DNA of 64,000 nucleotides from a virus. Each line of letters begins with the position of its first letter. Within the stretch, counting starts at the first letter, position 1. Shown here in pieces: positions 45,235-48,590 of this stretch. The stretch is taken from positions 1 through 64,000 of the IMG/VR virus record IMGVR_UViG_3300027779_000018. One strand, given 5' to 3'. The position numbers and the translations under genes are program-made. The notes beneath the pieces were generated by a model that did no database searches, was not told the DNA's origin, and saw only the letters and a program-made list of their open reading frames with translations.

Positions 45235-47208
45235 TTAATTTGCGTATTGCAATGTATGGTCTTGGTCAGTGGTAACTTGGTGGCCAATAACTGTTTGACC
45301 CCCAGTCACAATTGAAGAATTATCAGCAATTGATGAGGTATTAATGTTGTTCATATTCAATTCTTTTCTTTCTCTTGCATCTTCGGTAGCGTTTGCTAAA
45401 TCATCTCCACCACTAACAGTTTCTTTCACTGCTTTCCAACCTTTGCTTAAGTTAGTTTCAACTTCAATGGAATTGTCCATTAGCGCTTGGTCAATAACTG
45501 CTTGAGAGTTCTCACCCCCTACAACGGCTTCCCCTAAGTCAGTAGCCATGTCATCACCTGCTTTACCACCTAGAAGACCACCTACAATTGCACCACCAAC
45601 TCCACCAAGGAAACCACCTATTGCAGTTCCTATGCCGGGCCCGAAGAAAGAACCAATAAATGCACCAGCTTTAGCACCAGCGGCTCCACCTGCGAGGGCC
45701 CCTGCGAACGCACCAGTAGCTTTACCAGTTGAACCCACTAAATTAGCTTCATGAGCAGTTTCGAGTTTTTCAAATTCATCATCAGACATGTCTCTCATCT
45801 CACCATCGGCACCTTTAATTTTGAGTGTTCCTGCTTCTCTTTGTTTCTTAAGTGCTTCAAACTTAGACATTTGTTCATCTACGTCAACGGCACCTTCTAC
45901 AACTGCACCGATGATCGGTAACTTTTTAACTATAGCACCTAAACCTTTTTTAAGACCACTCCACATTCCACCTGATTTAGCAACTTCTTTAACAACATCA
46001 TCACCGGCTTTTAAACCTTGTCCTTGTCCTTTAAATCGTTTGTCGGGTGTGCCATCTGCTTTTAATTTGACACCTTTAGGCACTTTGTCCATCTTCGGTT
46101 TTGGTGGGAAGAGTTTAGAAAATCTATTTTGTAACCCTTTCCAACCTTTAGCAACCATGTCAGCGCCTGACTGAATAACTTTACCAGCACCCTCAATAGC
46201 CTTCTTTACTGCGGTAGCTGCACCAGTAAATGCGCCTGCCTCAAACGCAGCCAAAATCAGACCAATTGCGGCCCCAATTGCTATAATGGGTAATAAAATA
46301 CCAGCAGATATCAAGAGCAATGAAGTAGTGATACCCAACAATAAGAAGCCAAGTCTTTTCGATATCTTCTCTAGTGTTCCAGTATTATCCTCTTGTTGAT
46401 CTATGCCATCCTGCTGACCTTCCAATCGTTCCTCATCCATTTCTAAACTTTTATTCATGAAACCACCCAACTTTTTAATTGGGGTAGCAAGAAAACCAAC
46501 CACATCCTTAGCTGCTGACCATTGTTTTGTAATTGCATCTAGGGGCGCAGCGATATCAACGAGACCACCAGTCATGGTTTTTATACCAGCAGTGAATTTA
46601 TCAAACCCATCACTGTTGTTGGCCTCTTCCATCTGTTTGAGTTTCTCATCGTTTATTTCTTTGGCAGCTAACTGATATTTTTCTGATTCCTTTTCTTCAA
46701 TCTCAATTCTTTTATCTACACTAGATAGAATTTGTTCTTCTGTTTTTTTTCTTTTATCTTGTAACTCTTCAATAGATTTCATCTGATTATTAAGAGCTGC
46801 CCCCTGAAGCTTCGCACTCACTTCAATTTTATCAGCAATTTTTTTATCGAGCTCACCAAGTTTATTAGTCGATTTAAGTGCAGTTTCAAGTCTGTCTGTT
46901 CTTTCTTGTTCCAAGGTCTCTCGTATTTTGAGGGAGTCCTTAACAGCTTGATTAACTTTTATGAACTCAGAGTCGTTTTTAAATTTCTCTTGAACTTTTA
47001 GAGATTTACGAGCAGCTAGTGCAGACGCGAATGTATCAGAAGAGTTGTTAGCGATGTCAGCTGCAGCTTTAGCCACATCAACATTGATATCTTTTAAGTT
47101 ATTAATAACACCTTTAAATGCAGAAGGAAGCTTGGCACTAACCTTGGTTAATTCCTTAGTGTTCTTTAATATCTCTTTATTTTGATCTGCTACTGAGTCC
47201 TTGGCCAT
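45235..47208 (-). CDS. Tail tape-measure candidate, 657 aa
   Basis: The N-terminal 210 residues are long charged coiled coils. Hydrophobic helices follow near 285-325 (LLLGITTSLLLISAGILLPIIAIGAAIGLILAAF), and a glycine-zipper region lies near 500-560 (GGAAGAKAGAFIGSFFGPGIGTAIGGFLGGVGGAIVGGLLGG). This composition is typical of tape-measure proteins that leave the tail tip and enter the membrane. The length is near T4 gp29 (590). Position just downstream of the gp26/gp51 pair supports it. I cannot align it with gp29. Confidence 0.6.
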   Translation of the reverse strand: MAKDSVADQNKEILKNTKELTKVSAKLPSAFKGVINNLKDINVDVAKAAADIANNSSDTFASALAARKSLKVQEKFKNDSEFIKVNQAVKDSLKIRETLEQERTDRLETALKSTNKLGELDKKIADKIEVSAKLQGAALNNQMKSIEELQDKRKKTEEQILSSVDKRIEIEEKESEKYQLAAKEINDEKLKQMEEANNSDGFDKFTAGIKTMTGGLVDIAAPLDAITKQWSAAKDVVGFLATPIKKLGGFMNKSLEMDEERLEGQQDGIDQQEDNTGTLEKISKRLGFLLLGITTSLLLISAGILLPIIAIGAAIGLILAAFEAGAFTGAATAVKKAIEGAGKVIQSGADMVAKGWKGLQNRFSKLFPPKPKMDKVPKGVKLKADGTPDKRFKGQGQGLKAGDDVVKEVAKSGGMWSGLKKGLGAIVKKLPIIGAVVEGAVDVDEQMSKFEALKKQREAGTLKIKGADGEMRDMSDDEFEKLETAHEANLVGSTGKATGAFAGALAGGAAGAKAGAFIGSFFGPGIGTAIGGFLGGVGGAIVGGLLGGKAGDDMATDLGEAVVGGENSQAVIDQALMDNSIEVETNLSKGWKAVKETVSGGDDLANATEDARERKELNMNNINTSSIADNSSIVTGGQTVIGHQVTTDQDHTLQYAN

Positions 47209-47220
47209 TTATTTTTCTCT

Positions 47221-47604
47221 TTATTTTCCGAATGCTTTTCCAGCTTCTGATATACCGAATGCACCTAGTGTAACTACAACAAATGATGTGTAGATAGTTT
47301 CAGATACTTTCAAGTCCATATCAAATGCTAATGCTGTAACTAAATCTGTTATTCCAAACACGACCATCAATGCAAATGAAGTGAATCCTATGATTGCTTT
47401 TTCATTAACATCGTTATCATCTAAGAACAACATTCCAAATGTTCTCTTAGGTGGTTCAAGTTGATTTCGTGCTTTAACAGCATCTTCCTTCATCTCCTTG
47501 ATTCGATCTTCTTGGTCATCGAGTTTTTCGATAAGTGCCATGTACTTATCTAAATCTATTTCAACTTCATTGCCACCCGATTTCTTATCGTCATCGTCGC
47601 TCAT
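47221..47604 (-). CDS. Two-span membrane protein, 127 aa
   Basis: Acidic, coiled N-terminus (MSDDDDKKSGGNEVEIDLDKYMALIEKLDDQEDRI), then membrane helices at about 71-92 and 102-120. It lies between gp51 and the tape-measure candidate on the same strand. It could be a holin-like or tail-assembly membrane factor; nothing in the sequence decides between them. Confidence 0.65.
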   Translation of the reverse strand: MSDDDDKKSGGNEVEIDLDKYMALIEKLDDQEDRIKEMKEDAVKARNQLEPPKRTFGMLFLDDNDVNEKAIIGFTSFALMVVFGITDLVTALAFDMDLKVSETIYTSFVVVTLGAFGISEAGKAFGK

Positions 47605-47681: not shown

Positions 47682-47813
47682 CTACTGGTTACGAGCTTGT
47701 GTTTGTCTATCCTTTTCTTCCTCTAGCCAATTCAGCAACAGAGAAATGTATATCTCTCTTTCCCATGGTATCATACTTTCTAGTTCTGTTAAACTGTACT
47801 TATGATGTTGCAT
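47682..47813 (-). CDS. gp51: gp51-like baseplate hub assembly protein / frameshift-encoded domain, 43 aa
   Basis: MQHHKYSLTELESMIPWEREIYISLLLNWLEEEKDRQTQARNQ matches the short gp51-like proteins of cyanophages. ATG 47813 has no SD. Its frame is open upstream without a stop right back to the T-run at the end of gp26, so it may be made mainly as a gp26-gp51 fusion of about 296 aa. Confidence 0.75.
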   Translation of the reverse strand: MQHHKYSLTELESMIPWEREIYISLLLNWLEEEKDRQTQARNQ

Positions 47814-47866
47814 CAATTGAAAGTTAGTTTTATAATAGTTTACTAAACTTTCATGAGAAAGAGATA

Positions 47867-48571
47867 TTAAAAAAAATCTGATAGACCTCTAAGTGTTGAG
47901 GTATTTTTAGTACCACAAACATTACAGTCAAATTCCACCACCTCTTCAATGGTAGGAATTTGTTCGAAGAAGTCATTCAACTTCTCCATCTGATCTATTG
48001 TTAAACTCTCAATGAATTCAACAAGTTCTGCATCCTGAATTTCATCAGCTGTATATACAGTTTCTTCATCATATATACTTTCAATTCCGTATTTTAACAA
48101 CTCAACAATTCTATCACTTGTCTCTTTCGAGTCAACCATTGCTAATTGTTTGGTTGATGGATAACGAAGAGTGACACCTAGTGTATCGGATAGTGCAATT
48201 GTTGGGTCAACAACTTGGTCAGAGAATTTAACTTTAACTTCTGATAAATCAACTTCAACTTCTCCTGAACCTACACATCCTGTTTTATTACAGTACAATG
48301 CTACCTTAGTTGTTTCTCCTATCGACTTTGCTCTAATTTGTAAAAACAAATATTCCAAGTCAAAGATAGGTAGTTTATCCGAATCAACCTTTCCATCTGT
48401 AACAGCTGTAACTAAACTTTTAACTGCACCAAGAGTTTCCATGTTGTCTTGACTTTCTTTTGCAAGTAGCAAGTACTTTTGTTCTTTCACTAGAAAAGGT
48501 CGAAACTCAACTTCCCTTCCCCCGCTTAATTGACACTTAAACTTAGGTGCCTTTTGGATTGGTAATCCCAT
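47867..48571 (-). CDS. gp26: Baseplate hub protein gp26-like, 234 aa
   Basis: MGLPIQKAPKFKCQLSGGREVEFRPFLVKEQKYLLLAKES is the T4 gp26 family signature (T4 gp26: 208 aa). Cysteines in YCNKTGC and FDCNVCGTKN may bind zinc. Helical EIQDAELVEFIESLTIDQMEKLNDFF precedes the zinc-like end. Required for hub assembly. Its 3' end carries the slippery T-run, analogous in layout to lambda G/GT tail chaperones. Confidence 0.88.
   Translation of the reverse strand: MGLPIQKAPKFKCQLSGGREVEFRPFLVKEQKYLLLAKESQDNMETLGAVKSLVTAVTDGKVDSDKLPIFDLEYLFLQIRAKSIGETTKVALYCNKTGCVGSGEVEVDLSEVKVKFSDQVVDPTIALSDTLGVTLRYPSTKQLAMVDSKETSDRIVELLKYGIESIYDEETVYTADEIQDAELVEFIESLTIDQMEKLNDFFEQIPTIEEVVEFDCNVCGTKNTSTLRGLSDFF
47870..47876 (-). 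other. Candidate -1 ribosomal frameshift site (T TTT TTT)
   Basis: On the minus strand gp26 ends GAT TTT TTT TAA. The run of eight T (47876-47869) contains a perfect X XXY YYZ heptamer in the gp26 frame, directly followed by the stop. A -1 slip reads TTA ATA TCT and continues for 62 codons through gp51. Confidence 0.7.
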
Positions 48572-48590
48572 AATTTACTCCATATTGTAA

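Follow-up and report, generated by a model that had tools for sequence, protein, structure and literature searches.

A probable -1 frameshift joining gp26 and gp51 in an uncultivated T4-like marine phage, with a slip site conserved among relatives

Vladimirov and colleagues are said to have found frameshifting conserved in several groups of T4-like phages and separate genes in T4's own group. Their study (Vladimirov, Gautam and Davidson, Virology 2022, 566:9-15) is cited in two later papers as having identified the tail assembly chaperones of T4-like phages (PMC10885494, PMC12846349). As cited in the PRFect paper (PMC10885494), it covers T4-like phages that have, in place of the frameshift, one short chaperone gene and one long, fused one; the Adele paper (PMC12846349) refers to it on the subject of poly-T -1 slip signals within the TAC-N genes of T4-like phages. 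For T4 itself, a review places gp26 and gp51 among the chaperones of hub assembly and states that gp51 is missing from the finished particle (PMC3004832). The locus described here comes from an uncultivated marine phage that is not known to be among those of Vladimirov et al. (2022), and it is of the same kind as the T4-like chaperone loci that the citing papers attribute to that study. The idea of a frameshifted T4-like chaperone is already published, and our locus is a well-supported further instance of it.

We analyzed a stretch of 64,000 nucleotides (the window) from an IMG/VR record of 81,951 bases. A megablast search of phage records, with 24 kb of window sequence as the query, returned no match. 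The gene of interest, gp26, lies on the minus strand (47867..48571), as do all other features given below, and it is preceded by the Shine-Dalgarno (SD) sequence GGAG (48578..48581), read 6 nt before its ATG. Its product of 234 aa (26.2 kDa) matched PF12322 T4_baseplate (1.5e-54) and phrog_150 (1.2e-58) and was modeled by AlphaFold2 with a mean pLDDT of 94.6. This TAC-N-like short form is a member of the T4 gp26 family (PF12322/phrog_150). The window's gp26 also carries the cysteine pairs CNKTGC and CNVC (near residues 94-99 and 217-220), which resemble a split zinc-ribbon and are missing in some relatives (survey entries L015-L022).

On the minus strand, the 3' end of gp26 reads ...AGA GGT CTA TCA GAT TTT TTT TAA. 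The initial annotation had described a T TTT TTT slippery heptamer immediately before the stop codon, and we read that heptamer at 47876..47870, directly before the TAA. The -1 frame that opens there (47682..47876) comprises 64 codons counted from the slip site, followed by a TAG (47684..47682); once the two slip codons are subtracted, 62 codons remain, which was the length originally given for the open frame running through gp51. The predicted gp26-gp51 fusion has 296 aa (33.8 kDa), with LSDFF-LISLSHESLVNYYK as the residues at its junction, and the -1 frame would supply the gp51, or TAC-C, domain of this long form. The -1 product matched phrog_634 (3.3e-28), a family annotated as "baseplate hub assembly catalyst". 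It also matched phrog_150 in its C-terminal part (8e-7), from which it follows that the public phrog_150 family already includes long forms. The window has 85 ORFs with 100 codons or more, 20,335 codons in total; T TTT TTN occurred in phase nine times in these ORFs, and the gp26 heptamer was the only one of the nine that lay 8 codons or fewer from a stop. An open -1 frame of 60 codons was present at 16 of the 85 ORF ends and is not rare by itself. The weight of the case rests on the conserved protein in the -1 frame (phrog_634) and on the relatives, not on the length of the open frame.

We sought relatives of gp26 in IMG/VR contigs and annotated phages and obtained 138 genes, forming 112 clusters at 80% identity. 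The heptamer was absent from ten clusters. Seven of these were of T4 type, T4 itself among them, and the other three (Det7, K5lambda5 and Vibrio K444) were distant. All of the remaining 102 clusters, a count that leaves out T4's own group and Ackermannviridae-type phages, carried an in-phase T TTT TTN that ended 0 to 8 codons short of the gp26 stop, with C as the last base in 51, T in 46, A in three and G in two. The -1 frame was likewise intact in 102 out of 102 clusters, with a median of 63 codons, one frame ending at a contig edge. Heptamer bearers included cyanophages, Pelagibacter phage Mosig, Methylophilales phage Melnitz-1, Pseudomonas pf16, Sinorhizobium phiM12, Caulobacter Cr30, Rhizobium P10VF, Aeromonas Ah1 and Vibrio nt-1. 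The position of the heptamer was fixed, and the stop of the short form lay 0, 1, 2, 3 or 8 codons past it. The extensions of 101 clusters gave the consensus FF...lsh.sl.nyy.tnF.lmqhhkyS..elenm.PwEReiY, in which conservation begins at the slip codons. The initial annotation had proposed to check T4-like marine phages for a conserved T-run and an open -1 frame; both were present in every one of these clusters, and in the heptamer-bearing relatives surveyed the -1 frame ran from the T-run to the gp51 core without a stop codon. A slippery heptamer near the end of a short ORF and an open -1 extension behind it, both conserved, are the marks of a frameshifted TAC gene, and both are present here.

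The same survey bears on whether an error of sequencing or assembly in the T-run has split one real gene. Homopolymer runs are error-prone; however, three further contigs with an identical gene showed the same frame relation, as did the 101 other clusters, which stem from many projects and isolates, and T TTT TTC types, whose runs are short, showed it as well. This explanation is contradicted by the relatives, and we regard its chance of being correct as negligible.

The -1 relation extended to phages outside the count of 102 clusters. In Det7 and Klebsiella phage K5lambda5 (Ackermannviridae), a gp51-like domain also lies in the -1 frame, without T TTT TTN, and GAGATTTTCATTTAATTTTTGAAATTGATTTA at the gp26 end is identical between these two genera. 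This identity hints at a different recoding site in these phages. The -1 relation also held for Vibrio phage K444, where CTTTTTGCGTAATG stands at the junction and would be either a non-canonical slip or stop-start coupling.

Codon usage at the slip site was skewed. The first Phe codon was TTT in 102 out of 102 clusters, compared with 65% in the rest of these genes, and it was preceded by T in every cluster, across six different codons; since p-values for these biases ignore shared ancestry, we used their direction alone. Long runs of A or T can cause RNA polymerase to slip, and the run in the window is eight T long, as would suit transcriptional slippage, in which the polymerase adds a base on the T-run and part of the mRNA encodes the fusion in-frame. 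However, only six T stand in a row in 56 of the 102 clusters, T TTT TTC occurs about as often as T TTT TTT, and an SD-like stretch lies upstream of the slip. The heptamer also keeps its codon phase, which is needed by two-tRNA slippage and not by the polymerase. The 56 clusters with six T only make transcriptional slippage improbable, and these short runs together with the kept codon phase favor two-tRNA slippage on the ribosome.

The SD-like stretch in question, AGAGG (47886..47890), lies 9 nt before the heptamer in the window, a spacing of the dnaX type, and we propose it as a stimulator on the basis of its affinity for the anti-SD. Across the relatives, anti-SD affinity 3-20 nt before the slip was the strongest of 201 gp26 codon positions (mean -5.65 versus -1.43, sd 0.82, over the 201 positions and uncorrected for shared ancestry). 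It was also stronger than under synonymous recoding (-5.38 versus -4.42, with an sd of the null means of 0.11, again uncorrected for shared ancestry). T4-type gp26 also encodes Gly at this stretch, and part of the signal may therefore be protein conservation. Overall, these affinities suggest that the stretch stimulates slippage. Folding just after the slip was mildly stronger than in controls (mean z of -1.44 versus about 0 to -0.65), with one gp26 control window at a z of -1.06. We found no single conserved stem-loop or pseudoknot downstream of the slip; energies were mildly low and shapes differed among relatives.

We also considered whether gp51 is a gene of its own, read from an internal or coupled start, with the T-run incidental. 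Public records annotate it as a separate gene, and a gene finder would choose the ATG at 47811..47813 for a stand-alone gp51 in the window. Consistent with the initial annotation, which had noted an ATG without an SD, we found none for this codon (its first base at 47813), and a start there would remove 21 residues from the beginning of the conserved domain. The public records of Mosig and Melnitz-1 begin gp51 at a similarly far downstream ATG, whereas those of Ah1, ACG-2014d, S-CAM7 and S-MbCM6 leave the stretch without a gene even though the -1 frame is intact. In 42 out of 102 clusters, ATG, GTG and TTG were all absent from the -1 frame upstream of the conserved core, so independent initiation cannot yield the conserved protein there. 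The strong SD for gp51 in relatives, which the initial annotation had named as evidence against a fusion, did not occur. The start of conservation at the slip codons themselves and the fused form carried by T4 gp51 (see below) also argue against a separate gene. In some relatives (nt-1, Cr30 and P10VF), a start codon overlaps the gp26 stop, and coupled initiation could therefore add free gp51 as an additional product in these three phages. As the whole explanation of gp51, separate genes are highly improbable. In the literature examined, where Vladimirov et al. (2022) is represented by the papers citing it, we found neither the SD-like stretch nor a count of relatives lacking a gp51 start. For hundreds of marine phage genomes, gp51 is most likely the tail end of a frameshift product; current annotations of marine phages either make it a separate gene, with a start that is arbitrary, or omit it.

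We conclude that one gene very probably yields two chaperone forms by a -1 frameshift at T TTT TTT. The fusion of gp26 and gp51 put forward in the initial annotation is supported by the conserved heptamer, the open and conserved -1 domain, the lack of a usable gp51 start in many relatives and T4 gp51 as a version of the long form in one fixed frame; the slippage itself, its rate, the stimulation by the SD-like stretch and the chaperone role are inferred. Most ribosomes would stop at the gp26 stop codon and release the short form. A fraction would slip back by one base with two tRNA-Phe on T TTT TTT, probably aided by pairing of AGAGG with the 16S tail and by the stop codon next to the heptamer. 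These ribosomes would then add 62 codons and produce gp26-gp51, the long form of 296 aa. If lambda G/GT is taken as the model, gp26 and gp26-gp51 would act as chaperones: short forms would coat the tape-measure protein, the helical gp51 domain would recruit tail-tube subunits so that tail assembly starts correctly, and neither form need remain in the virion.

Comparison with T4 supports the view that this is the T4-family version of a chaperone pair. T4 gp51 (249 aa) aligned end to end with the window's fusion, through the junction (blastp 3.7e-14, 280 columns), so that the predicted long form is colinear with T4 gp51, and the counterpart of the short form is T4 gp26 (208 aa). Positions 13-280 of the 282 in phrog_150 were covered by T4 gp51, an essentially full-length match, and positions 14-235 of 282 by T4 gp26. 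In Pfam, a T4-type gp51 matched T4_baseplate over the whole profile, window-type gp26 and T4-type gp51 compared as profiles gave a probability of 97.9, and the predicted model of a T4-type gp51 had the element order of the gp26 model plus C-terminal helices. T4 gp26 and gp51 are thus homologous to the window's short and long form, respectively. T4 differs in that genes 26 and 51 stand apart from each other, diverge on opposite strands and lack the slip heptamer. With gp51 as the fusion and gp26 as the short form, two paralogous genes in T4's group therefore encode what other T4-like phages would obtain from one gene and a slip. We infer that T4 genes 26 and 51 arose by duplication. A broader proposal, to which we assign about even chances, is that in T4-like phages outside T4's group a dnaX-type internal SD 10-14 nt before the heptamer, and no downstream structure, mainly drives the frameshift, and that T4 genes 26 and 51 derive from duplication of such a gene. 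What gp26 and gp51 do in the assembly of the T4 hub has long been uncertain, and our comparison supports the T4 "baseplate hub" protein gp26 and "hub assembly catalyst" gp51 as the short and long chaperone forms.

The likeness of the locus to lambda G/GT, claimed in the initial annotation, stood as to layout and strategy; homology was not detected. The layout in question is a short protein, a -1 slip near its end (predicted in the window), a C-terminal extension and then a tape-measure gene (a candidate in the window), in the lambda order G, T, H. The window differs in having a 127-aa ORF with one hydrophobic segment (47221..47604) between gp51 and the tape-measure candidate; it had no confident family match and is conserved at this place in near relatives. 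The ORF beyond it (45235..47208, 657 aa) is a candidate tape-measure protein by its position, a hydrophobic segment near 282-330 and weak PHROG matches, including one to the tape-measure family phrog_23574 (6.5e-5), and in phiM12 and Cr30 the genes in this position carry a tape-measure annotation. Comparison of gp26 with lambda gpG (PF06894) by hhalign gave a probability of 0.2, with a shallow lambda alignment of six sequences that are 96-97% identical. The gp26 model had no match among solved structures (PDB) at an E of 0.001 or better, the best VIA-align Z being 3.0, and its matches among predicted viral structures were gp26/gp51 relatives. The slip sequence of lambda G/GT is G GGA AAG, unlike the T TTT TTT of the window. 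The TAC locus of Vandenendeviridae and Andersonviridae is alike in its open -1 frame, poly-T slip motif and chaperone upstream of the tape measure, and it differs in its invariant motif, GTTTTT, where the window has T TTT TTN (PMC12846349).
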